A stretch of DNA of 24,685 nt from a virus. Position 1 is the stretch's first letter; every line of letters starts with the position of its first letter. Both the position numbers and the translations under genes were made by a program. The stretch is from positions 1-24,685 of IMG/VR virus record IMGVR_UViG_3300031576_000268, one strand, 5' to 3'. The notes under the pieces were generated by a model. The model did no database searches. It saw only the letters and a program-made list of their open reading frames with translations, and was not told the origin of the DNA. Of this stretch, positions 373 through 24,623 are shown piece after piece.

Positions 373-525
373 ATGCCGTTGACGAAGAAGGGTGCTAAAA
401 TCAAGCGTTCGATGGAGCGGGGTTACGGGACGAAAAAGAAGGGGACTCAAGTTTTTTATGCCAGTGTGAATGCTGGCAAGATCAAGGGTGCACATGTCGG
501 GAAGAGGCGCGGACGGGGTCTCTAA
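373..525 (+). CDS. Conserved short basic phage protein (50 aa)
   Basis: This is a 50-residue Lys/Arg/Gly-rich protein starting MPLTKKGAKIKRSMERGYG, with a central VFYASVNAGKIKG. The pattern MPLTKKGxKIxxxM...G.KKG..VFYAS.N.GKIKG is one I recognise from many short uncharacterised proteins of tailed phages, often near the terminase and portal genes. Function is unknown; the charge would suit binding to nucleic acid, but that is inference. The ATG has a GGAGGG-like ribosome site at 359-365. Its last 32 bases overlap the start of the next gene in another frame. Confidence 0.75.
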   Translation: MPLTKKGAKIKRSMERGYGTKKKGTQVFYASVNAGKIKGAHVGKRRGRGL

Positions 526-1231
526 CGAGACTCCGGAAGCGCCCTCGGCGCGTCCGGAGGAGGGTCCGGTCAGGGAGCACCGCAAGTTAAGGGCGTTCAG
601 CCGTCATTTATTTGGCGGTCTATATTTTCCGGCGAATGATAGCGGGATTCCCAGGTGGATACGCGGCGCTGAAACCGTTGACAGATGCTACGCATATGTT
701 GACAAATTCGGTGTGGCGTTAGATATTGGGGCGCATGTTGGTCTTTACGCCCTACGTCTGGCGCGGCGGTTTGAGGCGGTGTATGCCTTCGAACCGGACA
801 TCCACAATTTCGATTGTTTGGTTACCAATGTTGTCCGTCTTGGCAACATTCATTGTTGTCAGGCAGCTCTGGGCGCTAGCTCTGTGGAGGTACGGATGGT
901 GGGGAAGCCGAGTGTTAGCAAGCGGGTAGAACACTTCACGACGGAACAGGAAGCGAAGGTATGTTTGACGGCGGTACAGATGCGGCCCTTGGATTGGTTT
1001 GGTTTAGAGCCTGATTTTGTCAAGATTGATGTAGAGGGTTATGAGCGGCTAGTTTTGGTTGGGGGGGAGAAGACTTTCAGGAAGCACCGGCCGGTGGTGA
1101 TACTGGAGGACAAGGGGCATTGGGCGCGGTATGGATCAAGCTCCCCTTTGAGCTTGTTGGAGAATTGGGGCGCTCGTCAGATGGAACATCTTGATCCTGA
1201 CGTAATATACAGGTGGCCAAATGAACGTTGA
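494..1231 (+). CDS. FkbM-family SAM-dependent methyltransferase
   Basis: This is a 245-residue protein with the Rossmann motifs of FkbM methyltransferases: motif I ALDIGAHVGLYALRLA at about residues 75-90, the acidic loop VYAFEPD at 96-102, and the family hallmark VKIDVEGYE at 176-184. The family O-methylates sugars and other hydroxyls using S-adenosylmethionine. The first ~35 residues are Pro/Glu/Arg-rich and outside the domain. An in-frame ATG at 470 is possible, but the ATG at 494 follows AAGGGTG at suitable spacing and is preferred. The gene overlaps the small upstream gene by 32 bases and the next glycosyltransferase gene by 11, so it is probably translated as part of one operon. The likely substrate is a glycan made by the neighbouring glycosyltransferases (inference). 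Confidence 0.85.
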   Translation: MSGRGADGVSNETPEAPSARPEEGPVREHRKLRAFSRHLFGGLYFPANDSGIPRWIRGAETVDRCYAYVDKFGVALDIGAHVGLYALRLARRFEAVYAFEPDIHNFDCLVTNVVRLGNIHCCQAALGASSVEVRMVGKPSVSKRVEHFTTEQEAKVCLTAVQMRPLDWFGLEPDFVKIDVEGYERLVLVGGEKTFRKHRPVVILEDKGHWARYGSSSPLSLLENWGARQMEHLDPDVIYRWPNER

Positions 1232-2033
1232 CTCCTTGCTGGGCGCGCCGGGGGCGCTTCCGGAGTCGCCTTTGGGGGCCTTAATGCCCTTCCCGGTTTA
1301 TGTTGGGTATGATTCCAAGCAGGTGCTTGCGTATGATGTGTGTGTGTTATCGCTCATGCGGCGCAGCACTGTGCCGTTGCACATTGTCAAGTTGCAGAGG
1401 GATGCCTTAAGTTGGCCTGGCGGTGGGGGGATTTTCGAACGGAAATGGTTTGCGATGGGCGAGCAGGAGTATGACGAGTCGACCAAGCGTCCATTTTCGA
1501 CGGAGTTTGCCTTCACGCGGTTTCTTGTCCCGATTTTGCAGCAGTATGAGGGGTGGGCTCTTTTCTGCGACAGTGATTTCTTATTTCGCGCTGACATTGG
1601 TGAGTTATTGGCCTTGCGGGACGACAAGTATGCTGTCATGTGTGTCAAGCATGATTTCAGGCCGGTTGAGACGGTAAAGATGGATGGCAAGTTGCAGACG
1701 AGTTATTTCCGTAAGAATTGGTCAAGTTTCGTGCTGTGGAATTGTTCCCATAAGCACAATCTATCGATCAGGAGGGAGGATGTGAATTGCAAGCCAGGTG
1801 ATTGGCTTCACCAATTCCGGTGGTTACGGGATGGGGACATTGGGGAATTGCCGGTGGAGTGGAACTGGCTGGAGGGGGTAAGCGATTCTTCGATCGACCC
1901 GAAGGCAGTACACTACACGCGAGGAGGGCCGTGGTATGAGCGATACAAAGACGCTGCTTATGCCGACGAGTGGCGCGGCTACCTTAGGAGCTGGGTCTCA
2001 TTGCCTTACGAGTTGGGATTGGAGAGGGTATGA
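1221..2033 (+). CDS. Glycosyltransferase, GT8-like (GT-A fold)
   Basis: This is a 270-residue protein with a GT-A layout. An N-terminal nucleotide-binding strand (FPVYVGYDSKQ, about residues 24-34) is followed by FSTEFAFTRFLVP (92-104), then a metal-binding DxD as FCDSDF (115-120). SSFVLWNC lies at 168-175, and a C-terminal VHYTRGGPWY (230-239) gives a late His of the kind GT8 enzymes use with the metal. Such enzymes move a sugar from a nucleotide-sugar donor to an acceptor; donor and acceptor cannot be read here. The ATG at 1221 follows AGGTGG; an in-frame ATG at 1284 lies just before the conserved part and is the alternative start. The 3' end overlaps the next gene by 98 bases. Confidence 0.8.
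   Translation: MNVDSLLGAPGALPESPLGALMPFPVYVGYDSKQVLAYDVCVLSLMRRSTVPLHIVKLQRDALSWPGGGGIFERKWFAMGEQEYDESTKRPFSTEFAFTRFLVPILQQYEGWALFCDSDFLFRADIGELLALRDDKYAVMCVKHDFRPVETVKMDGKLQTSYFRKNWSSFVLWNCSHKHNLSIRREDVNCKPGDWLHQFRWLRDGDIGELPVEWNWLEGVSDSSIDPKAVHYTRGGPWYERYKDAAYADEWRGYLRSWVSLPYELGLERV
1921..1928 (+). promoter_or_regulatory. Ribosome binding site deciding the start at 1936
   Basis: GAGGAGGG lies 7 bases before the ATG at 1936, inside the coding sequence of the upstream glycosyltransferase. It is the strongest Shine-Dalgarno sequence nearby and supports the long overlapping start rather than a start beyond the upstream stop codon. Confidence 0.7.
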
Positions 2034-2739
2034 GGCGTATGGAAAGTCTTTTCTCGAGACCTACCTTCAGAATGTGGGTCTGCCTCTTATGGTGTCTTGC
2101 GAGTCGGGTTGTCCGGTCACGCAAACGGACGGCTGCGCCGTCCGTTACGTTAGGTGCGAAGCCGACGCAGCGAGGGCTGCTTTCGCGAGACGGAACCATG
2201 ACGACATACGGGCGCACGGGCTATTCCATATCGGGGGCGGAAAATACAGGAAGGACTACAAATGGGACGCCATGAAATGGCACAACAAGGCGTTCGCCAT
2301 GACCAACATGGACGGCATATCCCTGGGCGGCTGGCGGATATGGATAGACGGGGACGTGACGTTTCACGCGCCCATGACGGAGGTGGATTGGTGCGAGATA
2401 TTGGATGACGAATACTTGGGAGTGTATATAGGCCGAACTGACTGGCCTCATTCCGAGTGCGGTTTTTTGGCCCTGAATCTTGGTCGTGGTGGCGTCTCGT
2501 TTCTGCTTTCCATGCGAGAAATATGGGCTTCGGATGCCGTGTTTAGATTGAGGGAATGGCATGATGCTTGGGTGTTCGATACGGTCCGCGCCATATATCA
2601 GGCGCGGGGATTCCGGTTCAAGGATCTGGCCGCTGGCGTTGGCGGAATGCATCCGTGGCCCCAGACGGTTCTTGGGCGCTTCATGACGCATCATAAGGGG
2701 CCTGTGGCGAAGGGAGAGCAGTATGGCCGGCCGGTATAA
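1936..2739 (+). CDS. Second glycosyltransferase-like protein (GT-A type)
   Basis: This is a 267-residue protein. The core runs from LTSWDWRGYEAYG (about residues 24-36) through DYKWDAMKWHNKAFAM (107-122) to a DxD strand RIWIDGDV (134-141). SECGFLALNL (173-182), EWHDAWVFDTVR (207-218) and a His-rich end MTHHKGPVAKGE (250-261) follow. I recognise this pattern from uncharacterised phage and bacterial glycosyltransferase-like proteins; the DGD and late His pair fit a metal-dependent GT-A enzyme. The specific activity is unknown. The first ~23 residues are low in complexity and coincide with the 98-base overlap with the upstream gene. The 3' end overlaps the next gene by 17 bases. Confidence 0.7.
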   Translation: MSDTKTLLMPTSGAATLGAGSHCLTSWDWRGYEAYGKSFLETYLQNVGLPLMVSCESGCPVTQTDGCAVRYVRCEADAARAAFARRNHDDIRAHGLFHIGGGKYRKDYKWDAMKWHNKAFAMTNMDGISLGGWRIWIDGDVTFHAPMTEVDWCEILDDEYLGVYIGRTDWPHSECGFLALNLGRGGVSFLLSMREIWASDAVFRLREWHDAWVFDTVRAIYQARGFRFKDLAAGVGGMHPWPQTVLGRFMTHHKGPVAKGEQYGRPV

Positions 2740-4108
2740 GCAGCTTGGCATCGTCATTGCCAACGTCAAGCCGGCGAAAATTGTCGAAATTGGTACGTGG
2801 AACGGGGATCGGGCCGTTGAAATGGCCACGGAAGCCCTGAAATACGTCCCCGAAGTCACCTATGACGGGTTCGACCTCTTTGAATCGGCCACTCCGGAGA
2901 CCGATTCGGAGGAAAACAACGTCAAAGTGCCTTCTACGCTGGAGGATGTAAGTAAAAAACTGAACGATTTCGCCGCTGCGGTGGAAAAAGACGGGAAAAA
3001 GTTTGCCTTCAGCCTCACCCAGTGCAACACACGGGATTTGACGAATCCGATAACGGGGGATTTTGCCTTTATTGATGGCGGGCATTCCCTGGAGACCATC
3101 CGGCACGACGTAGAGCTTACCCGCGGCGTCCAGGTGGTCGTACTGGACGACTATTACACCAAGGATGGCGACGGAAAATGCCCCGATCTCGAGAAGTTTG
3201 GTGCCAACTGCGTTTTTGGGTCGGACTGGAAGATCCTCTCGGAAAAAGATCCCGTCAAAGACGGAGGGTTCGTGCAGATGCTAGTGAGGGGCTGGCAGCC
3301 GAAGGTGAATCTGATAGTAAAGACGAAGAATTGCGTCCCGCACGAAGAAATACTTAAGAATATCAAATATACGCAGACCAAGGGCCTTAAGCAGATCGTA
3401 GAGTGCAAGCCCCACGAGTTGCGCGCCATCTTTGTGTCTGCCGGACCGTCATACAAGAAGTACTTGCGGGAAATAAGGGAGTGGACCGAGAACCGGGACG
3501 CCCGGGTCGTATGCGTCAAGCACTCTCACGATTTTCTTGTGGCGAACGGGATCATGCCGTGGGCGTGTGTGCTACTGGATCCGAGGTCCCATGTGAAGGA
3601 GTTCATTGAAAATCCCCACCAGGATGTGATTTACTTTACTGCGTCTATGGTCGACAAGACGACCATCGATCGGCTGGTAGAGTTCAGCGCGAATGTCTGG
3701 GTGTACCATCCGAAGGTCGGGGCCGGCGAGGAAGAGCTTATCAAGGCTCAATCCTTTCTTGTCCCGGGCGGGTCGACCGCGGCCACGCGCGGACTAGTGC
3801 TGTTGTCCGCCCTGGGGTTCAGGAAGTTCACGCTGTACGGCTACGATTCATGCTATCGCACAAAGCCAGATATGGATCAGAAGAACGATGCCGGGCAACA
3901 GAAGAATTTCCACGTCAATGTCAGCGGCCGGAATTTCTGGTCAGACGGCGAGTTGATAGCGCAGGCACAGGATTTCGAACGCCTGATTAGGGAATGGCAT
4001 ATGGTGGACGTGGAAGTGTACGGTGACGGTATGGTCAAGCACCTGAACGACTTCATCAAGGGATTCAAGCCGCGGTTTTGCGACGTGTTTCCCGAGACGA
4101 GGCTCTAG
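2723..4108 (+). CDS. Fusion: class I methyltransferase + MptE-like/DUF115 domain
   Basis: This 461-residue protein has two parts. Residues ~18-190 carry class I SAM methyltransferase motifs: VEIGTWNG (21-28), YDGFDLFE (47-54), FAFIDGGHS (114-122) and VVVLDDYY (138-145), the last two typical of the Methyltransf_24 group. Residues ~230-460 match the MptE-like/DUF115 fold also found in the flagellin motility-associated factor (Maf) glycosyltransferases: AIFVSAGPSY (235-244), GIMPWACVLLDPR (276-288), then VPGGSTAATRG (347-357) with LGFRKFTLYGYDS (364-376). That second family includes sugar transfer to flagellin and a pterin diphosphokinase. Given two glycosyltransferases upstream, sugar chemistry is the likelier role. 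The ATG follows GGGAGAG. The gene stops 2 bases before the portal start. Confidence 0.75.
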   Translation: MAGRYKQLGIVIANVKPAKIVEIGTWNGDRAVEMATEALKYVPEVTYDGFDLFESATPETDSEENNVKVPSTLEDVSKKLNDFAAAVEKDGKKFAFSLTQCNTRDLTNPITGDFAFIDGGHSLETIRHDVELTRGVQVVVLDDYYTKDGDGKCPDLEKFGANCVFGSDWKILSEKDPVKDGGFVQMLVRGWQPKVNLIVKTKNCVPHEEILKNIKYTQTKGLKQIVECKPHELRAIFVSAGPSYKKYLREIREWTENRDARVVCVKHSHDFLVANGIMPWACVLLDPRSHVKEFIENPHQDVIYFTASMVDKTTIDRLVEFSANVWVYHPKVGAGEEELIKAQSFLVPGGSTAATRGLVLLSALGFRKFTLYGYDSCYRTKPDMDQKNDAGQQKNFHVNVSGRNFWSDGELIAQAQDFERLIREWHMVDVEVYGDGMVKHLNDFIKGFKPRFCDVFPETRL

Positions 4109-4110
4109 TT

Positions 4111-6237
4111 ATGGCAATGGCGCCCGGAACATTGGCGTCGGGGCTCGCCCCCCATAGCCTTGGCGACGGGGGGCAACCCCCCGAACTGTTCAACATCGCC
4201 TCTAGCCTGGAGGAGAAGGAACTTCTGGAGATCGGCAACTTGGCGTGGCGGGAATACAAGGAGGATCTGACCACTCGGACCGAGTGGCTGGAGATGCATG
4301 CCCACTGGATTAACCTGTATTACCATAGGGACAAGCCCCTGAATCCGCCGTGGAACGGTTCATCGCAAGAAGGCGTGCCGATGCTGGCGGAAGCCTGCAA
4401 TCAGTTTCACGCCCGGGCAGTCCCGGCATTTTTTCCGGGATCCGTGATCGTCAAGGCCATACCGACCGGCAATATAACTGATCTGGATCTGAAGCGGGCC
4501 GAGCGTGTGTCGAAACATCTGTCTTGGCAATTGTTGTCAAAGGATCTGTCGTACAAGAAACGCAAGGACGCGCTCCTTCTCGGTGTTGTATTGCACGGCT
4601 CCTTCTTCACGAAGACCTTCTGGGATGGCCAGAATGTAGTGGTGGAAAACGTGCGGGCCGAGGATCTGGTCTTGCCCTATAGTGTCGGGCCGCGGGAAAT
4701 CGAGAAGGTAGAACGCAAGACGCAATTGATCTGGATGAGTGTGAACGACAGTAAGATTCACGCCCAGGGGGGATTTTTCCTGCATGCGGCTGAAGCGTAC
4801 CAGCAGCCGGATCCGAAGCCGACCACCGCGGCCATCGATCAGGCTATGGGAATCCAGCCTGGTGTGCGGAGAGACTATTCCGACGCGTTACTCCTGGAGC
4901 AACACAGGCTGCTGGACCTGGACGACGACGGCATTGCCGAACCATACATTGTGACACTTGACGCCCAGACGCAGAAGGTTCTTCGCATTGCCATCCGATA
5001 CGAGGTCGACGAGACTGGGTATCCGACGGATGGCAAGAAGCCAATCGAGTACTTCACGCACTACCAGTTTCTGCCCAACCCGGATGGGGTGTACGGTCTC
5101 GGAATGGGACACTTGATTGCCCAGATCAACACCGCCGTCAACAAGATGATGCGGCAGACGGTCGACGCCGGGACGTTGCAGAATACCAAGTCCGGATTTG
5201 TGAACGACTCTCTCGGGGTGAAGAAGGGCGAAGTCGTTATGAGCATGGGCAAGTTTGTGCCAGTCCCCATGCTCACGTCGCGCATCCAGGACAACATACA
5301 GGAGTTCCAATTCTCGCCCCCAAGCCAGGCCATCGTCGCGATGATGGAATTGCTTATGTCGCGCGGGGACAGGCTTGCGACCGTTACCGAAGCACTGACC
5401 GGGCAGACGGAACAGGTCATGCAGCCGACCACCATCCTGTCCCTTGTCGACCAGGCCATGAAGGTCTTCTCCGCCAGCTTCGACCGGCTCATAGATAGCT
5501 GGTCCGAAGAGTTGCGGAAGATCTATAGGTTAAATGGAAAGTATCTGTCGGACCAGGAATACGTCACCATTCTTGATGCATATGGCTTGGAACGATTCCA
5601 GATAGGCAGGAAGGACTACGCTGCGGATTTGCAGATAGTTCCGATTGCCGATCCTAAGATGTCCTCAGCTCAGAGGAAGATGGCGAAGGCACAGGCCGAA
5701 TGGCAGTTCCTGTCTCAGAATCCGCTCGTATTGCAGAGCCCGACGCATTTCTATGAAGCGTCGAGGCGATATCTGGAGTCGATCGAGACGGAAAACATCA
5801 ACGCCGTGCTCCCGCGGCCGGTCACGGATCCCATGCGGGTGGACGATCCGAAGATTGAGAACATGGGCGCGATGATGCCGAATCCTGTTATTCCGAACGT
5901 ATACGCGGATCAGGATCACATGACCCACCTGATGGAACACGAGGCGATAAAGGTGGATCCGGTCTTCAGTGGGCGCTTGACGCCGCGGGGACTGCAAATG
6001 CTAGAATTGCATATCCAACTGCATGCTGCTTATATGTATGGTGTAAGGAATGCTGGACTCGGAGCCGTCCTCGCTGGACCAATGGGAAGTGGAGCAATGG
6101 CAGCACAACCCGGCTACGTTATGGTTCCTCCGCAGCTTGGCGGGCAAGTTCCGACCGCAGGACCTGTGGAAGGGGGCGGACAACCCCCTGCTCCTGGCGC
6201 GCCTCCAGGGGCAAATGGAGGTGCTGGACTATATTAG
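4111..6237 (+). CDS. Portal protein
   Basis: This is a 708-residue protein with the size and pattern of short-tailed phage portals. The N-terminal stem has PWNGSSQEGVPMLAEACNQ at about residues 80-98, followed by FHARAVPAFFP. A long alpha/beta middle includes the YQFLPNPDGVYGLGMGHL region, and helices follow with VTEALTGQTEQVMQPT. The last ~60 residues are Gly/Pro/Ala-rich and look disordered. The portal forms the dodecameric ring at one capsid vertex through which DNA is packaged and ejected. The ATG at 4111 follows the upstream stop by two bases and has ACGAGG upstream; a TTG at 4078 in the same frame is less likely. The disordered 3' end is overlapped by another reading frame (6050-6259). 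Confidence 0.85.
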   Translation: MAMAPGTLASGLAPHSLGDGGQPPELFNIASSLEEKELLEIGNLAWREYKEDLTTRTEWLEMHAHWINLYYHRDKPLNPPWNGSSQEGVPMLAEACNQFHARAVPAFFPGSVIVKAIPTGNITDLDLKRAERVSKHLSWQLLSKDLSYKKRKDALLLGVVLHGSFFTKTFWDGQNVVVENVRAEDLVLPYSVGPREIEKVERKTQLIWMSVNDSKIHAQGGFFLHAAEAYQQPDPKPTTAAIDQAMGIQPGVRRDYSDALLLEQHRLLDLDDDGIAEPYIVTLDAQTQKVLRIAIRYEVDETGYPTDGKKPIEYFTHYQFLPNPDGVYGLGMGHLIAQINTAVNKMMRQTVDAGTLQNTKSGFVNDSLGVKKGEVVMSMGKFVPVPMLTSRIQDNIQEFQFSPPSQAIVAMMELLMSRGDRLATVTEALTGQTEQVMQPTTILSLVDQAMKVFSASFDRLIDSWSEELRKIYRLNGKYLSDQEYVTILDAYGLERFQIGRKDYAADLQIVPIADPKMSSAQRKMAKAQAEWQFLSQNPLVLQSPTHFYEASRRYLESIETENINAVLPRPVTDPMRVDDPKIENMGAMMPNPVIPNVYADQDHMTHLMEHEAIKVDPVFSGRLTPRGLQMLELHIQLHAAYMYGVRNAGLGAVLAGPMGSGAMAAQPGYVMVPPQLGGQVPTAGPVEGGGQPPAPGAPPGANGGAGLY

Positions 6238-6259: not shown

Positions 6260-6293
6260 CAGTATATGGGGCCACGGACGAACGCACACAAAT

Positions 6294-6298
6294 GGAGA
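6294..6298 (+). promoter_or_regulatory. Ribosome binding site deciding the start at 6305
   Basis: GGAGA lies 6 bases before the ATG at 6305. The earlier in-frame ATG at 6266 has no comparable site, so 6305 was chosen as the start of the RyR-domain gene. Confidence 0.6.
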
Positions 6299-6304
6299 CG
6301 CGGG

Positions 6305-6685
6305 ATGGACGAAGCTTCTTTCGCGATTGATGTCGAGTCAATTGCCTCAATTTGTCATGAAGCAAACCGGCAATACTGTGCAGAGCTCGGCGATTTCTCA
6401 CAATTGGCTTGGAATGAGGCCGCGGCATGGCAACGCGAGAGCGCCATCTCCGGCGTCAAGGCGCGCGTGGCGAACCCGGGGCAGCCGCCGAGCACTTCGC
6501 ACGAAAGATGGATGGCTCACAAGCTCGCCGAGGGCTGGCAGTACGGACCGATCAAGGATGCCGACAAGAAAGAACACCCATGCTTGATGCACTATGAACA
6601 CCTGCCGGTCTCGCAACAGCGAAAAGACTATCTCTTCACCGCGATCATCGATGCGCTGAAGCCGATGCTGGATCAGGTGGACTGA
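6305..6685 (+). CDS. RyR-domain protein
   Basis: This is a 126-residue protein. The N-terminal half (ESIASICHEANRQYC at about 11-25, then FSQLAWNEAAAWQRESAISG) and C-terminal half (HERWMAHKLAEGWQYG at 66-81, HPCLMHYEHLP at 91-101, RKDYLFTAIIDAL) match the pattern of short RyR-domain proteins in phages and bacteria. The RyR domain is named after the repeat in ryanodine receptors; its role in phages is unknown. Its place between portal and co-chaperonin suggests co-expression with head genes but not a role in the virion. An in-frame ATG at 6266 would add 13 residues. Confidence 0.75.
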   Translation: MDEASFAIDVESIASICHEANRQYCAELGDFSQLAWNEAAAWQRESAISGVKARVANPGQPPSTSHERWMAHKLAEGWQYGPIKDADKKEHPCLMHYEHLPVSQQRKDYLFTAIIDALKPMLDQVD

Positions 6686-6707: not shown

Positions 6708-7382
6708 ATGCCTACTCCAACGGGCGCAAGAGGTTCTGATTATCGTGGCCACGACCCATCGGCGCCAGGCAAGGGCGGGAGCAAGGGCCGTGACTCTGGG
6801 ATATCCATCGGCAACGTGCTGGGCGCCCTTGCCGGCCTTGCCTTCGGTGGGCCGATGGGCGCGGTTGGTGGCTGGGGTGCGGGCGGCCGGATCGGGGATT
6901 TCCTCGGCGGCGCGCAGTTTTCCGGCGGTCGCCCCTCTGGGCCTCGGGGACCTGGGGGGCAGAGGGGACAGAGGGGCGGCGGGCCGAACGAACGAGATCA
7001 GTTCGTCAACGCCGTTATGGGCGGCCGCCAGCATCGCCCTCGGAGGGAGGAGAGGAAGCTCAAGGGGATTATCAAGGAGCCCCCCCTAACGTTCATGCCC
7101 GGAGTCCTGCCCTTTGGTCCCGAAGCCACCAACCTGCAGCAGAGAACCGGCATCGCGACCGGAGGCACAGCAGGACTCGCCGGCTACTACAATGATCCAG
7201 AAGTGATGAAGTACTACCAGAACTTGCTCATGCGGGATATGATCGGTGACGACGGACAGTACGGAGCATATGAATCGGTGATGCCCGTGGAACACCAGTA
7301 TTTACAGCAGGCGTTCGGACTGCAGTATGATCCGAATATAGCGGCTTTGTTGAAAGCATTGCAGGGGTATCAATTCGCATGA
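6708..7382 (+). CDS. Glycine-rich, glycine-zipper phage protein of unknown function
   Basis: This is a 224-residue protein. After a polar Gly/Ser/Lys start, a glycine-zipper hydrophobic stretch runs through about residues 33-68 (SIGNVLGALAGLAFGGPMG, then GAVGGWGAGGRIGDFLGG). A Gly/Pro/Arg-rich linker (about 72-95) and a basic patch with RPRREERKLKG follow. The C-terminal 90 residues are Tyr-rich (YYNDPEVMKYYQNLL) and end helical. The zipper could insert in or cross a membrane, as some ejected phage proteins do, but the position in the head module rather than with the ejection genes leaves this open. A GGGGGGA ribosome site lies 7 bases before the ATG. The stop overlaps the next start by 4 bases. 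Confidence 0.65.
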   Translation: MPTPTGARGSDYRGHDPSAPGKGGSKGRDSGISIGNVLGALAGLAFGGPMGAVGGWGAGGRIGDFLGGAQFSGGRPSGPRGPGGQRGQRGGGPNERDQFVNAVMGGRQHRPRREERKLKGIIKEPPLTFMPGVLPFGPEATNLQQRTGIATGGTAGLAGYYNDPEVMKYYQNLLMRDMIGDDGQYGAYESVMPVEHQYLQQAFGLQYDPNIAALLKALQGYQFA

Positions 7383-7642
7383 TCAGACCATTATTCGCCA
7401 GAGTGTTGCTGAAGCGCGACGTGCTGAAAAGTACTATCGTCATCCCCCAGGCATTCCAGAACAGGAATGCCCCCGCGAGGGGGATCATCGTCGCGGTCGG
7501 GCCGGCCGTGGACGAGAGCGTGAAGGACCTGATCGGCAAGGCGGTGCTGTTTGGCCGGTTTGCCGGAGAATGGATCAGGGACGGGGGTGACGAGGTGTAC
7601 GTCATCCAGGATGAGGATATCTTGGGAGTTTGCGATGACTGA
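7379..7642 (+). CDS. GroES-like co-chaperonin (Cpn10)
   Basis: This is an 87-residue protein with the Cpn10 layout. The N-terminal strand IRPLFARVLLKRD (2-14) is followed by the flexible mobile loop, with the hydrophobic tripeptide IVI at 20-22 (IVL in GroES). The ARGIIVAVGP strand (33-42), GKAVLFGRFAGEWI (53-66) and the C-terminal VYVIQDEDILGV (73-84) complete the barrel. Co-chaperonins cap the GroEL ring; phage versions such as T4 gp31 and the RB49 CocO protein let host GroEL fold large capsid proteins. Here the gene lies directly before the scaffold gene and 1.8 kb before the capsid gene, which fits that role. No GroEL gene is in the window, so it would use the host ring. It overlaps the upstream gene by 4 bases (ATGA) and the scaffold by 8. 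Confidence 0.85.
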   Translation: MIRPLFARVLLKRDVLKSTIVIPQAFQNRNAPARGIIVAVGPAVDESVKDLIGKAVLFGRFAGEWIRDGGDEVYVIQDEDILGVCDD

Positions 7643-8426
7643 GGTCGAAAAGGCGACTCCGCAAGCGCCTGCGACGCGTGCGGGAGAGAACGTTGAGGTC
7701 CCTGACGGGACTCCGGACGGCAGTGACGGAACGGATTTCGTCGATTCCTTTGGCAGTCCCGAAGGCAACGCGCGTTTCCGCCGCGTCTATGGTCACATGA
7801 AGGAATACGAGCGGGTCATTTCGCAGTTGATGGATCACAACAACAAGCTCCAGGCAGCCGTGGATGACATCAATTCGAACATGCAGACCCAGACGCAAGT
7901 TGCCGCCCTGAACGCGGCGAAGAAAAGCCTGAAGGAAGCCAAGGATATCGGCAATACCGATGCAGAGGTCGAAGCGCATACGCGGATCGCCGCCCTCTCG
8001 ATCCCCAAGAAGAAGGTTGAAACCAAGGCGCCGGAGATCGAAGTTCCGAACCTGGACGTCACTTTGATCAGGACGTGGGCGAACGAACTGCAGGACGGAA
8101 ACTTTGTCAGACCTTGGACCCAGCCGGGTCATCCCAAATATTACGATCTGCTCGACCTCACCAAGGAAGTCAGCGCCAAGTTTCCGGACGACGTGGAAGC
8201 GGTGTTGCGGGAGTTGGATGCTCGAATGGGTATCGGATCGGCAGCAAACGGCAGCGTAACCCCACAGCGCAGGTCTCCGGTGCTATCCGGTGGCGCAGGC
8301 CGGCGCGCGCAGGAAAAGGTGTCGCTGACTCCCGAACAGAAGGAAGTCGCTCGGCAGATGGGAATTAAGGAAGAGGCCTATCTGAAGCAGTTGAGGCTCA
8401 TTGCCGGGCCAAGGACAGGAGCTTGA
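7635..8426 (+). CDS. Scaffold-like protein
   Basis: This is a 263-residue, highly charged protein. An acidic, Pro-rich N-terminus (~45 residues) is followed by a long helical, coiled-coil-like middle (HMKEYERVISQLMDHNNKL, then LNAAKKSLKEAKDIG). A conserved-looking segment has TWANELQDGNFVRPWTQPGH, then YYDLLDLTKEV, and the basic C-terminal end has LTPEQKEVARQMGIKEEAY. That last phrase, as well as the position shortly before the capsid gene, fits phage scaffold proteins, which guide capsid assembly and then leave. A longer frame opens at 7551, but the ATG at 7635 with GGGAG upstream and an 8-base overlap with the co-chaperonin is the natural start. Confidence 0.7.
   Translation: MTEVEKATPQAPATRAGENVEVPDGTPDGSDGTDFVDSFGSPEGNARFRRVYGHMKEYERVISQLMDHNNKLQAAVDDINSNMQTQTQVAALNAAKKSLKEAKDIGNTDAEVEAHTRIAALSIPKKKVETKAPEIEVPNLDVTLIRTWANELQDGNFVRPWTQPGHPKYYDLLDLTKEVSAKFPDDVEAVLRELDARMGIGSAANGSVTPQRRSPVLSGGAGRRAQEKVSLTPEQKEVARQMGIKEEAYLKQLRLIAGPRTGA
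8417..8421 (+). promoter_or_regulatory. Ribosome binding site deciding the start at 8429
   Basis: AGGAG ends 7 bases before the ATG at 8429. The same frame has a TTG at 8423, only one base from this site, which is too close, so ATG 8429 was chosen. Confidence 0.6.
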
Positions 8427-9405: not shown

Positions 9406-10302
9406 ATGACAATCTCAACTGGCGCCTTTGCCGAGCTGCTTTGGCCCGGCATCCGCGAAATCTGGGGCAACAAGTACACGGACTGGCCGTCCCTGTACAC
9501 TCAGATTTTCGAGGTCAAGAAGTCCGACAAGGCCTTCGAGAAGGAACAAGGCGTGACCGGCCTGCCCTTGGCGTCCATCAAGGACCAGGGTTCGCCGATT
9601 CCCTTTGTCGATCCATTCCAGGGATTCCAGCGGGAATATGTGAACACGACCTACGCCATCGGAGCCTCGGTGACGCGGGAGATGTATGACGACGCGCAGT
9701 ACAACTACATCAACTCGCTGCCTGAGATGCTTGCCCGCTCCATGCGGCAGACCGAGGAAACCACCCATTTCAACATCCTGAACAATGGCTTTAGTTCCAC
9801 TACCGGGACCTCGGATGGGGTGTCCATCATCAATGCTTCTCACCCCATGGTCGGAGGCGGCACGGCCCTGAGAAACCAACCGGCCACGGCCAGCGATCTG
9901 ACCATGACCTCCTTGGAAACGGCGTTCACGGACATCATGGACTTCTACGACGACCAGCTTCTGAAGATCAGGGTCATGCCCAAGTTCCTGGTTGTGCCGA
10001 CCGCACTGTGGGCCGTGGGCGAGAAAGTGTTGGGGACCGACCGGGTCGTCGGCAGCGCTGATAACGACATAAATGTCGTTAGGGGTAAGGTCAAGCTGAT
10101 CGTGAGCCCGTGGCTCACGGACACGGATGCATGGTTCGTGGTCACGGACGCCATGCACGGATTGACGAGCTACACGAGGCGTGAAGCAGAGATCGATCGG
10201 GATAACGACTTCGACACGCAGAACCTGAAGTTCAGCGCTACCCGTCGGTGGTCTCAGGGCTTGACGGACTTCCGCGGCATCTACGGGTCGGCCGGGGCGT
10301 AA
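9406..10302 (+). CDS. Major capsid protein
   Basis: This is a 298-residue protein with the look of an HK97-fold major head protein, nearest to the Mu gpT-like group. The N-terminal FAELLWPGIREIWGNKY (about 8-24) leads to the EYVNTTYAIGASVTREMYDD region (E-loop/P-domain). LEQ-free helical parts follow, then KFLVVPTALWAVGEKVLG (about 193-210) and KLIVSPWLTDTDAWFVVTD (229-247). The C-terminal REAEIDRDNDFDTQNLKF with RGIYGS matches the end of that group. It would form the icosahedral shell. A strong GGAGG ribosome site (9395-9399, 6-base spacing) fits high expression. The co-chaperonin and scaffold genes upstream fit its assembly. Confidence 0.85.
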   Translation: MTISTGAFAELLWPGIREIWGNKYTDWPSLYTQIFEVKKSDKAFEKEQGVTGLPLASIKDQGSPIPFVDPFQGFQREYVNTTYAIGASVTREMYDDAQYNYINSLPEMLARSMRQTEETTHFNILNNGFSSTTGTSDGVSIINASHPMVGGGTALRNQPATASDLTMTSLETAFTDIMDFYDDQLLKIRVMPKFLVVPTALWAVGEKVLGTDRVVGSADNDINVVRGKVKLIVSPWLTDTDAWFVVTDAMHGLTSYTRREAEIDRDNDFDTQNLKFSATRRWSQGLTDFRGIYGSAGA

Positions 10303-10361: not shown

Positions 10362-10814
10362 ATGGGTGTAACGACTTTTTCCGGTCCGATCAGGACTGGC
10401 CGGGATCCTGGCATACCGGGTCAGGATACTCGCGGGACAGTGGTACTGAGTCAGGTGGGGACTGTTGGCGCTGCGGTTGCTGCGAGGAAGTCTCAGATTC
10501 AACTCCCACCGAATTGCCGGCTTGTCGATTTCACCATATATGTCCTGCAGGCTGTTAGCGCCTCTGCGGGCGGCACCGCTGCCACCTTGCGTATTGGCAC
10601 TTCCGCCGACTCGACGCGCTATGGTTCCCTTCCGGTGTCGGCGGTCGGGATTTATCGTCCTACGCTGGTGCAGGTGTCCGTTCGGGCCATGGCGAGCGGG
10701 GCGGGGAGCGCCGATTTCAATCTTGTCGTGTTCGACGCTACTGTTCAGGCGTCCGCGTCCGGCATGACTCAATTCGAGGCCCAGATCCTAGCCAAATACA
10801 CCCAGATCAGTTAG
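10362..10814 (+). CDS. Putative phage structural protein (beta-rich)
   Basis: This is a 150-residue protein rich in Ala, Gly, Ser, Thr and Val. It starts GVTTFSGPIRTGRDPGIP (2-19), then has GTVVLSQVGTVGA and a beta-sandwich-like core (CRLVDFTIYVLQAVSASAGG), ending in alternating polar/non-polar strands. The SGPI..G...G start is shared by small virion proteins coded after phage capsid genes in my memory of such genomes. The role may be a head fibre or decoration. A GAGGGGG ribosome site (10349-10355) and a 59-base gap after the capsid gene suggest independent, efficient translation. Confidence 0.55.
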   Translation: MGVTTFSGPIRTGRDPGIPGQDTRGTVVLSQVGTVGAAVAARKSQIQLPPNCRLVDFTIYVLQAVSASAGGTAATLRIGTSADSTRYGSLPVSAVGIYRPTLVQVSVRAMASGAGSADFNLVVFDATVQASASGMTQFEAQILAKYTQIS

Positions 10815-10827
10815 CAGCGGGGCGATC

Positions 10828-11139
10828 ATGGGTTCTAAACTCCAGCAGGTCACTGTCACAGGATCCGGAGCCGGTAGTCTGAATCTCAATCCGGCCTCCA
10901 AGCAGATTCAGATTACGTGGCGGGTTCAGCAGACTAACCAGCCGACCTATGCCGTGCAGGGGACCTTGATCAACCTCCTGGAAACTACGGCGACGGCTGC
11001 GGATTGGTTTGATCTGGTGAGCGGGGCCACGACCGACCGGGACGGCTCCTTCGTCGCCCCTCTGAATGCCATCCGGATCAACGTGACCGTCGTATCGGCC
11101 TCCTCGACCGCTACGTTGCGAGTCATTCAGGGCGGGTAG
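10828..11139 (+). CDS. Small structural-type protein, copy 1 of a duplicated gene
   Basis: This is a 103-residue, beta-rich protein (GSKLQQVTVTGSGAGSLNL; WRVQQTNQPTYAVQGTLINL; then TTDRDGSFVAPLNAIRINVT). Its closest relative is the gene at 13365: after residue 1 the two align without gaps. The last 131 bases before the stop region are identical but for one base, while the first halves differ at many positions. The final strands RINVTVVSASSTATLRVIQG look like an edge of a beta sandwich. Function is unknown. By position and composition it is a minor virion protein. A weak GGGGCG ribosome site precedes the ATG. Confidence 0.6.
   Translation: MGSKLQQVTVTGSGAGSLNLNPASKQIQITWRVQQTNQPTYAVQGTLINLLETTATAADWFDLVSGATTDRDGSFVAPLNAIRINVTVVSASSTATLRVIQGG
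11002..11132 (+). repeat. 131-base direct repeat, left copy
   Basis: This stretch in the 3' part of the gene at 10828 matches 13611-13741 over 131 bases with a single mismatch (a G here, a C there, in the GAGCGG-GCCACG context). Upstream of it the two gene copies diverge clearly, so the match is a sharp tract and not uniform similarity. Confidence 0.9.
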
Positions 11140-11194: not shown

Positions 11195-11476
11195 ATGCCC
11201 GCCTTTCGCGTCGTCATCAAGGCACCAGCAAGGCTTGCCGTGAACGTGCCGAGCGCCGTGACCGCGGCGGAAGCGGCGAGATTCGCGGTCGCGCAGCTCG
11301 CCTTCAATAAGGCGGTGGTGGAATTGGACTTCATCCAACTGCACGGCACTGTGCGGGTGGAGGCGACAGAGCAGAGAGGGGCGCCCGTCCGAGATCAGAC
11401 CACGGTATTCCTCTGGGACCTGGGAGACAACCGGTCCGTGGCTGTCAAGAGTACGATCCAGGAGCGGCCCAAGTAA
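11195..11476 (+). CDS. Hypothetical protein in the repeat-flanked block
   Basis: This is a 93-residue protein. The N-terminal strand AFRVVIKAPARLAVNVPS (3-20) is followed by an Ala-rich helix with AAEAARFAVAQLAFNKA (24-40), then VELDFIQLHGTVRVEA (42-57) and a C-terminal strand region (TTVFLWDLGDNRSVAVKSTI). It is mostly beta with one helix; no family is recognised. GAGGG precedes the ATG, and its stop shares one base with the next start (TAATG), so it is coupled to the large protein that follows. It could be a partner or assembly factor of that protein (inference). Confidence 0.5.
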   Translation: MPAFRVVIKAPARLAVNVPSAVTAAEAARFAVAQLAFNKAVVELDFIQLHGTVRVEATEQRGAPVRDQTTVFLWDLGDNRSVAVKSTIQERPK

Positions 11477-13365
11477 TGGCCCAGCGCACCAATTGCACCG
11501 AGCAGGCGTTTCCGACCAACGAAACGAGCCTCGCGGCCGCGACCCGGTCGGACTTCGCGGCGATCACCCTCTACGTGCCGGAGACCACGACCAGGACCTT
11601 CCGTTCTGTGGCCGTCCAAATCACGTGCCGCGACAACTCTGCGACGGCACAAGACCTGACCTCGTGGTTGATCGGGATCAAGCTCGGCGCGGTCGCGTTC
11701 GACGACGCGACGGTAACGAACACGATCGCCCACTCAAGCGAGCACCAGACCCACACCTTCACCCGGGACGTGACGAGCTACTTCGCTACCAATTTCGGTG
11801 CGGGCGCGACCCAGACCTGCCAGGTGGGCGTGCAGTTTGGTGGGTCCGTCACCATCAACATCACAGCCAAGCTCATCATCACCTACGAGTACGACGACGC
11901 CTCGCAGACGACCCGTATCAAGACGGTCCGCATCCCCCTCGAAAGTGCGACTGGCGCGTTGACCACGACCTTGACGGAGATCGGTACGAACCAGGTGCCG
12001 CTTCTCGACACGTTCCTCCCCGAGAGCACAAAAGTTTTTCGGGACATCTTCTTCGAGGTCATGGGAAACGAGGCGAACGCTGGGGTAACGAACACCAACC
12101 TATCCCTCGCACTGGACGCCGAGGCGGCGGACAACACCGGCGTCATCGAGAACGCGCTCGCGTCGAGTTGTTGGTTCTACTATATCTGGCAGCGGCTCGC
12201 CATGACCACGAACGTGACCCATGCGTTCAATCTGGCGACGGTCTCGACGACCGGAAGCACCTTCAACCACATGGCGATCGTGCTGGTCGTGACCTACGAG
12301 TACGATCACAGCGCTAGTACGACGATCCTCAACTCGGTCATGCTGCCGGTCTATTTTTCTGGCACTCGGGGCGGCTCGGCGGCGGCCGACCAAGACCGAT
12401 ACGAGCGCAAGTTCTTCATCGAGGAACCGACAACCATCGCGCTCGTGCAGAGCGGGGTGTTGCTTTATTGGGGAACGACAAGCGCGTTCAACATTAATGT
12501 GCTGTGTGGCAGCCAAGCGGCGCGGACCTATACGGTGGTCGGCGGCACTGTCGCCGGGATGCACAATGTCATGCAGCGCATCGACAGCGGCGGGGCGCAG
12601 GGCGCGGGGATCACGCTCGCCCGCGGCGAAAACACACTGACGGCCAATTACTATTTCGCCAGTGCCATTGACCTCGGCGGCGCCTCTGGCTGGTGCTATC
12701 TCAACTACACGAGCGGGAAAGCAAGCGCAGGCGCCGCGGTTCACAATCATACGATTTTCCACTTGATTGGCGGCCAGATAGCAGCGGCGGCGAAACGTGC
12801 GTTTACGGCGACGGCGCCGAACATTCCGGAGGCCGACTACTACGCGATGACCGCTTTGTGCTTGCAGTATCTTTGGGGCTCCCCCGGCAACAGCCAGGCG
12901 ATAGAGGCGGAAGTCTTGTCCGGAGAAGGGGCGGGTGACGGTTGGCGGATACTGTACAACAAATTCCTGCAATGGGACGTCGAGAACGGGGTTGCAACTG
13001 GCGTCGGGCCGCCGATCGACGAGTTCGACCGCTACCCGCAAGATCAGCGTGCTCTCGGTCTGGTGCTGGAAAGCTCTCGGGTATATCAGCGACAAAGCGT
13101 CGGTAATACCTGGGATGCTCTAGCCATGTGGATCACCTACCATGCGATCAGCTACGACATCGCGGGGGCGGTGACGCCGAACCCCGGAGCCGGCGTCGCC
13201 GTGCAGGCCTATCGCACGGACACCAAGGAATACCTCAACACCGCGAACACCGACGTCAGCGGCAACTACACGATGAAGTGGTACGACAACGTGATCGAGG
13301 TGTTCACGGAGTGTCGGCAGAGTTCGAGCGAGGTGGGGCGGAGCGATAACGGAGTGGCCGCCTGA
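11476..13365 (+). CDS. Large beta-rich structural protein with C-terminal carboxypeptidase-regulatory-like domain
   Basis: This is a 629-residue protein, Thr/Ala/Ser/Val-rich with little helix. Two related N-terminal units can be seen. Each ends in a strand with TYEYD (136-140 and 273-277) followed by a similar SxTTxIxxVxxP run, suggesting tandem beta-sandwich domains of ~135 residues. The middle has Trp/Tyr-rich segments (SCWFYYIWQRLAM). The end, about 558-615 (DIAGAVTPNPGAGVAVQAYR, then NTDVSGNYTMKW), matches the pattern of carboxypeptidase-regulatory-like/Ig-like domains found in surface proteins and phage fibres. It is probably displayed on the virion, as a head fibre or adhesion protein, but that is inferred. 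Start and stop share one base with the flanking genes. Confidence 0.55.
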   Translation: MAQRTNCTEQAFPTNETSLAAATRSDFAAITLYVPETTTRTFRSVAVQITCRDNSATAQDLTSWLIGIKLGAVAFDDATVTNTIAHSSEHQTHTFTRDVTSYFATNFGAGATQTCQVGVQFGGSVTINITAKLIITYEYDDASQTTRIKTVRIPLESATGALTTTLTEIGTNQVPLLDTFLPESTKVFRDIFFEVMGNEANAGVTNTNLSLALDAEAADNTGVIENALASSCWFYYIWQRLAMTTNVTHAFNLATVSTTGSTFNHMAIVLVVTYEYDHSASTTILNSVMLPVYFSGTRGGSAAADQDRYERKFFIEEPTTIALVQSGVLLYWGTTSAFNINVLCGSQAARTYTVVGGTVAGMHNVMQRIDSGGAQGAGITLARGENTLTANYYFASAIDLGGASGWCYLNYTSGKASAGAAVHNHTIFHLIGGQIAAAAKRAFTATAPNIPEADYYAMTALCLQYLWGSPGNSQAIEAEVLSGEGAGDGWRILYNKFLQWDVENGVATGVGPPIDEFDRYPQDQRALGLVLESSRVYQRQSVGNTWDALAMWITYHAISYDIAGAVTPNPGAGVAVQAYRTDTKEYLNTANTDVSGNYTMKWYDNVIEVFTECRQSSSEVGRSDNGVAA

Positions 13366-13748
13366 TGGCGCTCGATATCACCCTGCGTAATCCAGGCGCG
13401 GACTTCAATATCATCCTCAGCACCAACCTCGCGGTCATGGGATCAAAAATACAGCAGGTCACTGTCACAGGGTCCGGGGCCGGCATCTTGGCCCTCAACC
13501 CATATTCTGAGCAAATCGCGATCACGTGGAGGGTCCAGCAGACCAATACCCCGACCTATGCCGTGCAGGGGACCCTCATCAATATCCTAGAGGCCGCTGC
13601 GTCGGCCTTGGATTGGTTTGATCTGGTGAGCGGCGCCACGACCGACCGGGACGGCTCCTTCGTCGCCCCTCTGAATGCCATCCGGATCAACGTGACCGTC
13701 GTATCGGCCTCCTCGACCGCTACGTTGCGAGTCATTCAGGGTATGTAA
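13365..13748 (+). CDS. Small structural-type protein, copy 2, with N-terminal extension
   Basis: This is a 127-residue protein. From M25 (the ATG at 13437) it is collinear with the 103-residue protein at 10828. The first 24 residues (ALDITLRNPGADFNIILST, then NLAV) are extra and absent from copy 1. The gene starts by one-base overlap (TGATG) with the large protein upstream. The 3' half is nearly base-identical to copy 1 while the 5' half is diverged. It may be a chimera formed when the block 11195-13365 entered next to a duplicated gene. The internal ATG at 13437 has no obvious ribosome site, so the long form is preferred. Confidence 0.65.
   Translation: MALDITLRNPGADFNIILSTNLAVMGSKIQQVTVTGSGAGILALNPYSEQIAITWRVQQTNTPTYAVQGTLINILEAAASALDWFDLVSGATTDRDGSFVAPLNAIRINVTVVSASSTATLRVIQGM
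13611..13741 (+). repeat. 131-base direct repeat, right copy
   Basis: Right member of the direct repeat pair with 11002-11132; 130 of 131 bases match. The two copies are about 2.5 kb apart in the same orientation, so recombination between them would delete the block containing 11195-13365 and leave one intact small gene. Confidence 0.9.
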
Positions 13749-16613: not shown

Positions 16614-17033
16614 ATGGCTTCACAAACAAGAACGGTGAATAAGGGTCGGTTTGAGGACGGCGATGTGCCGACGGGTAGCGATTATGTCGATCTGATCGAC
16701 TCCTACCTCTCCCTGGCCGACACTGGCGCCCAGACCGTTACTTCCCTGCTCACCTTGTCCGGCGGAATCGCCACCACGACCGCTTCCGCTGCGGCAGTCG
16801 TCTGCGATACCGTCACCACCTCGGCTCAGAGGGTCACCACTCTGGGTCAGGGGACGGCCGCACCTTCATCTGGCTTCTGGATGACGGCCACGGAAGGTAA
16901 TGCTAGGTTTGATATAGCCACGACCACTCGAGCCTCCGGCGGTACCGGGGGGGCCGTTCCGGCGAGCGCTCAAGCGTTCGGACTCGTGACCATCAACGGG
17001 GTGACATACAGGATCGCCCTGTTCAACAATTGA
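16614..17033 (+). CDS. Fibre-type structural protein with a shared N-terminal motif
   Basis: This is a 139-residue protein. Residues 10-32 (K10, FEDGDVPT 13-20, DYVDLIDSYL 23-32) align position for position with the N-termini of the tail-fibre gene at 23760 and the partial gene at 24624. The rest is Thr/Ser/Ala-rich beta (SLLTLSGGIATTTASAAAVV) and ends GLVTINGVTYRIALFNN, a compact beta domain. The shared motif probably anchors the protein to a common virion site. It may be a short fibre or a head-tail collar protein. It lies just before the tail adaptor gene. AAGG about 10 bases upstream is the likely ribosome site. Confidence 0.55.
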   Translation: MASQTRTVNKGRFEDGDVPTGSDYVDLIDSYLSLADTGAQTVTSLLTLSGGIATTTASAAAVVCDTVTTSAQRVTTLGQGTAAPSSGFWMTATEGNARFDIATTTRASGGTGGAVPASAQAFGLVTINGVTYRIALFNN

Positions 17034-23759: not shown

Positions 23760-24623
23760 ATGCCCCCAGTAACCAAAGTATCGGCCAAGGCGCTTTTCGA
23801 GACCGGTGATGTTCCAACATCCGCCGATTTCTCTGACTTGGTGGACAGTTACCAGGACTATGACGCGACCCTCTTCGCCATCGCCACGGCGGCCCAGGGC
23901 GGGCAAACTGGCCTGTTGGTCATAGAGGCCACGGCACAAGTGACGCTACGGGCCCTAGGAGCGGCCGTGACGGCCTTCTTGTCGGCTGCTACTACGAGCC
24001 GCGCCAGGGACGCCTTGGAACTGGGCGCCCTTGCTACGGCGGCGGGCGTTAGTTTGACGCGCATCGCCAACCAGGCTTCTGGCGCCATCTTCGGTTTCAA
24101 CACCGCCGGGTCGGCCGCGGCCATCGGAGGCAGCAGCGGGCAGCTTCTGATCTCGCAGGGCTCCGCTACTGCGGTGTTCGTCAGCTTTGTTTCCGCTATG
24201 GCTACGGCCGGCGTTTCGGCGCACGGGGTGGTTACGATCGCCACCACGGCGGACACCGTATCGGCCAACCGTGCGGACCGAGTGCCGACGGTCGCCACGT
24301 TTCGCGCCCACCCCGGCGTGTGCAAGGCGTGGCTGCAGTGCAACACGTCCACAGCGGCGATTGCCAATTCGATGAACGTCACTGCGGTGACAAATCAAAA
24401 CGCTGGAAATTTTCACGTAGCTTTCACCATTCCGTTCGCCACCTCGGCATATGTATTAGGTGGAGGGGCATTGGCCCTGTCCGAGGCGAATCCTCATATC
24501 ATGGCCTTGCGCGCGACCACTGGAAACCAATCGGCCGCCGGGTGCAAGATATCCGTAGGCACCGGGGGCGGAGTTGCCAGCGATACGCCCAACGCTACCG
24601 CCGTGTTCATAGGGACGCAGTAG
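23760..24623 (+). CDS. Tail fibre-type protein
   Basis: This is a 287-residue protein. Residues 10-31 (K10, FETGDVPT 13-20, DFSDLVDSY 23-31) form the anchor motif shared with the genes at 16614 and 24624. The middle is an Ala/Thr-rich collagen-free shaft-like region (LGALATAAGVSLTRIANQAS) with beta turns. From about residue 180 it reads HGVVTIATTADTVSANRADR and then HPGVCKAWLQCNTSTAAIAN, NVTAVTNQNAGNFHVAFTIP. That C-terminal beta domain is a pattern I know from many phage tail-fibre tips, probably the receptor-binding head. The start follows the ejection gene by 15 bases. Confidence 0.75.
   Translation: MPPVTKVSAKALFETGDVPTSADFSDLVDSYQDYDATLFAIATAAQGGQTGLLVIEATAQVTLRALGAAVTAFLSAATTSRARDALELGALATAAGVSLTRIANQASGAIFGFNTAGSAAAIGGSSGQLLISQGSATAVFVSFVSAMATAGVSAHGVVTIATTADTVSANRADRVPTVATFRAHPGVCKAWLQCNTSTAAIANSMNVTAVTNQNAGNFHVAFTIPFATSAYVLGGGALALSEANPHIMALRATTGNQSAAGCKISVGTGGGVASDTPNATAVFIGTQ

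Follow-up and report, generated by a model that had tools for sequence, protein, structure and literature searches.

A glycosyltransferase and methyltransferase cassette beside the portal gene of an uncultured phage, with a proposed role in virion glycosylation

The window analyzed here is a 24,685-base IMG/VR fragment from an uncultured phage (IMGVR_UViG_3300031576_000268, positions 1 to 24,685), in which four open reading frames (ORFs) of the ORF list, located at 494-4108, encode an FkbM-family methyltransferase, two glycosyltransferases named GTa and GTb, and a last protein composed of a methyltransferase domain (MT24) and a PF01973 (MptE-like) domain. GTa, GTb, and MT24/PF01973 form a core unit that travels together in phage genomes; GTb and PF01973 are mostly parts of a single chain, and the window carries a split version of this usually fused protein. 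It is very probable that the cassette enzymes build a methylated glycan, and we regard the chances as evenly balanced that its acceptor is a virion protein, which would make the locus a virion-glycosylation cassette.

An earlier examination of the letters alone (the sequence-only reading) had described an overlapping run of four genes in this region. This arrangement was confirmed: all four genes are on the plus strand, with overlaps of 11 bp (FkbM/GTa), 98 bp (GTa/GTb), and 17 bp (GTb/last gene), and the portal gene starts two bases past the end of the cassette.

Co-occurrence of the cassette genes in related phages

Unless a lower bound is given, counts refer to the best matches of each scan of relatives, at most 80 per scan, and most relatives are metagenomic fragments. 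When the portal was used as bait, GTa, GTb, MT24, and PF01973 were found upstream in six of six relatives. With GTa as bait, PF01973 was present in 22 of the 54 viral loci that extended 3 kb downstream, each time with GTb beside it (22/22), and was found near GTa in none of 80 bacterial GTa loci. With PF01973 as bait, GTb and GTa were nearby in 52 and 53, respectively, of the 54 viral loci with enough upstream sequence. FkbM was detected nearby in 21 of 54 PF01973 viral loci and is thus an optional member. The proposal of a glycan/methyl-transfer cassette that lies in a structural operon and travels as a set in other phages is therefore supported by co-occurrence for three of the four families, and the original four-gene set is redrawn as a core of GTa, GTb, and MT24/PF01973 with FkbM as an extra. 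A chance co-location was rejected, as dozens of divergent contigs share the set. At least 572 confirmed PF01973 relatives were obtained in one scan, in aquatic phage contigs, while a tblastn search of 50,697 phage records with the last gene gave zero matches, so that no isolate carrying this gene was found among them.

GTb and PF01973 were in one open frame in 70 of 75 relatives, and an earlier set of ORFs contained 25 GTb-MT24-PF01973 and 11 GTb-PF01973 fusions; one fused relative is 760 aa long. The split form was observed in the window and in contigs L002, L027, L196, L199, L200, and L208. A sequencing error is disfavored as the cause of the split, since the split recurs in these six related contigs and, in L027, the junction between GTb and the last gene is occupied precisely by an HNH endonuclease gene. 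No description of a phage GTb-MT24-PF01973 fusion was found in the literature covered, which left out preprints and most subscription journals.

The position of the cassette between the terminase region and the portal, as given by the sequence-only reading, stands on the portal side; no terminase gene is present in the 24,685-base window, yet TerL is directly upstream of the cassette in relatives. The portal gene was found at most 1.5 kb downstream in 43 of 61 relatives. In isolates with the same structural genes and no cassette (Alcaligenes phage QDWS535, MW202796, Roseobacter phage CRP-902, and Planktothrix phage Pag-Yong1), TerL adjoins the portal gene, indicating that the cassette occupies an insertion site. 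Together with the GTa tree described below, these empty sites suggest an inserted cassette whose parts are replaceable.

The slot contains sugar-nucleotide genes in some relatives. In L003-L007, it holds an RfaE2-like nucleotidyltransferase gene, a PMI-type cupin gene in four of the five, and a gene for GDP-mannose 4,6-dehydratase (GMD; E = 2e-99 in L004); a gene for a PMM-like protein occurs in a single case. A further protein of this slot had no match in Pfam or NCBIfam, and its provisional label "Caps" is a guess. In L199, all four window families occupy a slot equivalent to that of the window, in the order TerL, Caps-like, GTa, FkbM, GTb, MT24, PF01973, portal. As the sequence-only reading had stated, none of the scanned window genes was recognized as one for nucleotide-sugar synthesis; the host, or the part of the genome outside the fragment, would thus have to supply the donors. 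A second phage module was also observed, in which RfaE2-like genes (30 of 80 GTa loci) and PMI-cupin genes (25 of 80) directly precede GTa, mostly without PF01973 (L032, L035, L055, L070, L086, and others).

Folds and predicted activities of the four proteins

The identity proposed for the first gene was upheld by profile searches, with scores above the cut-off for PF05050 (E = 2e-13, 51 bits versus 22.7) and TIGR01444 (E = 1e-23, 84 bits versus 37.7), and a match to phrog_8156 (E = 1e-26). A sequence search of the PDB found nothing for this protein, which is likely, from its family matches, to be a sugar O-methyltransferase. GTa matched phrog_28018 (E = 2e-56) and the profile of the O-antigen enzyme WbbM (6u4b; E = 3e-6), and scored below the curated cut-off of the GT8 family PF01501 (13 bits versus 24.3, E = 0.076). 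The DxD motifs reported in both glycosyltransferases are genuine conserved features: that of GTa (D117, D119) is invariant across 12 sequences and that of GTb (D138, D140), present as WxDxD, across 36.

In the GTa tree, the protein of the window clusters with those of L027 and L002 and with alphaproteobacterial and prophage GTa (support 87/97), apart from most cassette phages, but the deep branch is weakly supported (52/54). This topology is only suggestive of a replacement of GTa in the lineage of the window. Many Alphaproteobacteria carry GTa homologues as ordinary genes of the chromosome; conserved chromosomal copies were seen in SAR11 and Rhizobiales (L121-L186, for example L128:9983-10684), often near tsaD-like and hemY-like genes, assigned by reading the sequences. 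GTa is also embedded in the structural genes of two alphaproteobacterial prophages, one of which has an adjoining FkbM gene; in a Rhodospirillaceae prophage (L122:9926-11361), GTa and an FkbM-type methyltransferase gene (phrog_8156) stand beside a head-tail adaptor gene. Among cultured phages, Caulobacter phage CcrBL9, which grows on strain CB15, encodes GTa and FkbM (gp177 and gp178) near a putative tail protein.

No family match was obtained for GTb in the domain-profile scan, and a sequence search of the PDB found nothing. Its AlphaFold (AF2) model (predicted local distance difference test, pLDDT, 90; predicted template modelling score, pTM, 0.87) has the fold of a GT-A glycosyltransferase, in line with the class assigned by the sequence-only reading, and on this model GTb is a GT-A-fold glycosyltransferase. 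Its top structural matches, tied at Z 14.5-15.2, were BoGT6a, domain 1 of A064R from the algal virus PBCV-1, GlyE, and glycogenin. The N-terminal residues of GTb, about 19, are surplus when compared to its homologues, and GAGGAGG precedes its start.

The last gene had been read as a methyltransferase fused to an MptE-like domain, and this two-part structure was corroborated. Its product matched PF01973 above the cut-off (E = 8e-18, 65.2 bits versus 34.6) and PF13578 just under it (E = 2e-5). The model (pLDDT 90, pTM 0.62) aligned over both domains with Maf (5mu5; Z 22.9, 323 residues, model 7-445 on 5mu5 71-504). The first domain matched O-methyltransferase folds, including the sugar methyltransferase CalS11 (5hoq, Z 13.8), and MT24 has an intact S-adenosylmethionine (SAM) motif I and Asp residues that are conserved in nearly all relatives. 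A sequence search of the PDB with the PF01973 domain gave a weak Maf match alone (E = 0.034), and this domain also weakly matched the KDO transferase WaaZ (E = 0.0017). No GT42 entry was listed among the structural matches of the last gene, a listing that cannot show absence.

If the Pfam name were taken literally, the PF01973 domain would be a genuine pterin diphosphokinase of the MptE type, encoded by a gene of cofactor metabolism. The second domain alone does share the PF01973 fold of archaeal MptE, a 6-hydroxymethylpterin diphosphokinase (HPPK, 8sd5; Z 15.6, root-mean-square deviation (rmsd) 3.4, 195 residues). However, MptE is a single-domain enzyme of the pterin pathway, whereas the phage domain is in a common chain with a glycosyltransferase in the great majority of relatives (70/75, as above), and a FolB partner was found in 0 of 13 phage records, which may be fragments. 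In addition, Maf is the top structural match and aligns with both domains, and the curated models touched by the domain are PseD and WaaZ. The sugar-nucleotide genes in the slot of the relatives make a glycan role much likelier than a pterin role. A pterin enzyme is thus extremely unlikely, and the label "MptE-like" is most likely misleading here, for what is most likely a glycosyltransferase.

Acceptor of the proposed glycan

We infer the enzyme activities and the order of the steps as follows. During infection, a short glycan would be put together inside the cell by soluble transferases, namely the Maf-like PF01973 domain and the two glycosyltransferases GTa and GTb, and MT24 and FkbM would add O-methyl groups to it. 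The PF01973 domain, most likely Maf-like, would transfer sugar directly onto a protein about to self-assemble, either attaching the glycan to a phage structural protein or extending it there; this acceptor would be a component of the head or tail, encoded in the late operon that also carries the cassette. Donors would be provided by the host or, in some relatives, by phage genes. None of the four proteins contains a hydrophobic stretch (maximal 19-residue mean 1.28), which fits soluble enzymes.

Maf transfers CMP-nonulosonate to Ser/Thr residues of flagellin. It O-glycosylates this protein with a PF01973 domain described as Cst-II-like, and its methyltransferase-like domain has been described as degenerate (PMC11339370). 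As in the phage protein, an N-terminal Rossmann/methyltransferase-like domain precedes PF01973 in Maf, which is also soluble, and its acceptor is a self-assembling structural protein (PMC11339370), as would be the case in our proposal. By contrast, the SAM motif is intact in the phage form, which is usually fused to GTb and encoded in a phage structural operon. The match of the last gene to Maf across both domains narrows the likely acceptor to a protein.

A second parallel is found in PBCV-1, in which A064R, a GT-GT-methyltransferase chain, makes part of a methylated capsid glycan to which A061L adds a second methyl group (PMC9614988). As in the phage cassette, transferases and a methyltransferase are combined in one soluble chain, with a separate second methyltransferase, and domain 1 of A064R (2p72/2p73) matches the fold of GTb (Z ~14.6). 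This likeness is at the level of the fold alone (9-10% identity); the order of the domains differs (GT-GT-MT versus GTb-MT24-PF01973), no PF01973 homologue is named in A064R, and PBCV-1 is a eukaryotic virus. Direct evidence of virion glycosylation exists for few phages. In mycobacteriophages, phage-encoded glycosyltransferases O-glycosylate capsid and tail proteins (Freeman et al. 2023, as reported in PMC12619734 and PMC11652166). As in virion-glycosylation systems, the glycosyltransferase genes of the cassette stand beside virion genes, in particular the portal gene.

Several observations weigh against virion glycosylation by a Maf-like enzyme. The superposition on 5mu5 has an rmsd of 14.1, which indicates that the orientation of the domains differs between the last gene product and Maf. 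The C-terminal helical domain of Maf, which has a weak likeness to flagellin and its chaperones, is absent from the phage form, whose chain ends at residue 461, 16 residues beyond the aligned part, and the last gene scored 26.4 bits with the full-length curated NCBIfam model PseD, for which the cut-off is 670; membership in the Maf family is thus not claimed. The structural neighborhood is not universal: T7-like phages carry the set with replication genes on one side and the small-terminase gene on the other, and the related genes of phage Mosig adjoin RNR and RuvC genes. No acceptor stood out when the presence or absence of structural genes was compared, because the isolates without a cassette are too remotely related and are in any case missing many of these genes. 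Finally, likeness of fold does not show function.

The main rival explanation is that these enzymes modify the surface of the host, altering its O-chain or capsule during infection, which would prevent superinfection by phage competitors or renewed adsorption to debris. Such a role has been suggested for the GT8-type and rfaE genes of the aquatic pelagimyophages (PMC7029224), which resemble the RfaE2/PMI-GTa groups found here. It would also agree with the chromosomal GTa homologues of Alphaproteobacteria and with the profile matches of GTa to WbbM and of PF01973, weakly, to WaaZ. However, the pelagimyophage genes, for which host lipopolysaccharide was the proposed target, lie mainly in the tail-fiber region of T4-like phages, and no PF01973 enzyme is among the genes reported in the accessible part of that study. 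Moreover, the four proteins have no membrane segment, no flippase or polymerase was seen, the terminase-portal slot is conserved across divergent phages, and the closest match by fold is an enzyme that glycosylates protein. We consider host-surface modification possible, but on the doubtful side.

Phage glycosyltransferases are also known to act on DNA (cited in PMC12619734), and the transferases could glycosylate hypermodified bases as a protection against restriction. This is improbable, given the late structural location, the Maf-like fold, and the absence of a thymidylate-synthase-type base-modifying gene from 14 cassette-bearing records (0/14), which may be fragments; the methyltransferase, GMD, and PMI partners are also better suited to glycan building.

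Returning to virion glycosylation, we propose, tentatively, that the cassette may represent a widespread Maf-type protein glycosylation of aquatic phages: its GT-methyltransferase-Maf-like enzyme, encoded at an insertion site that separates the terminase and portal genes, would glycosylate the particle by the route known from bacterial flagellin. If this is true, the 572 or more aquatic phage contigs carry a compact genetic signature of virion glycosylation, including a candidate protein-attachment enzyme and, in some, sugar-nucleotide genes. Glycan-wearing phages would then be predictable, and the roles of the glycan in stability, adsorption, and evasion would be testable.

Neighboring genes and minor observations

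Downstream of the portal gene are a GroES-like gene, a capsid gene (9406-10302), and tail-related genes (Table 1); further structural proteins are encoded at 10362-10814 and 11476-13365. The GroES-like co-chaperonin gene is also present in cassette-less isolates.

Table 1. Features of the cassette and of the genes that follow it in the window.
Feature	Position	Strand	Evidence and remarks
FkbM-family methyltransferase	494..1231	+	245 aa; alternative ORF start 470; PF05050, TIGR01444, phrog_8156
GTa, GT-A-type glycosyltransferase	1221..2033	+	270 aa; phrog_28018, WbbM 6u4b profile match, DxD
GTb, GT-A-fold glycosyltransferase	1936..2739	+	267 aa; AF2 model, structural matches, WxDxD
MT24 domain, class-I SAM methyltransferase	2723..3304	+	~aa 1-194; PF13578, folds, motifs
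PF01973 (MptE-like/Maf_flag10) domain, proposed glycosyltransferase	3320..4108	+	~aa 200-461; PF01973, Maf 5mu5
Portal protein	4111..6237	+	PF23899 (E = 5e-12), phrog_1216 (E = 2e-16); usual downstream neighbor of the cassette
RyR-domain protein	6266-6685		Directly after the portal gene; PF02026 (E = 8e-11); PHROG relatives without known function
GroES-like co-chaperonin	7379-7642		Between the portal and capsid genes; PF00166 (E = 1e-10)

The sequence-only reading had noted a shift in codon endings and had taken it as a possible sign of separate origin. The difference in third-base T was observed (28% in FkbM, 25% in GTa, and 23% in GTb versus 17% in the portal gene), but the structural-operon genes at 10362, 14129, and 15319 likewise have 25-30%, and codon endings are thus a weak argument for separate origin. 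An Rfam scan of the window gave zero matches, and promoter-like sites showed no excess over shuffled sequence.

An inverted repeat of 32 nt (524-555 and 1241-1272) was detected with 28 matches, compared to 23 in the best of 40 shuffles. Its arms lie just within the 5' ends of FkbM and GTa, and a related third copy (7653-7670) lies just within the 5' end of the gene at 7629. The repeat could be a scar of recombination or insertion. A small basic ORF of 50 aa (373-525; MPLTKKGAKIKRSMERGYGTKKKGTQVFYASVNAGKIKG...), without match in the PHROG search, overlaps the start of FkbM. Two apparent paralogous pairs were also observed among the structural genes (10828-11139 with 13365-13748, and 16614-17033 with 23760-24623), with a common MGSKxQQVTVTGSGAG stretch and a common N-terminal GDVPTxxD motif as the signatures of these pairs.

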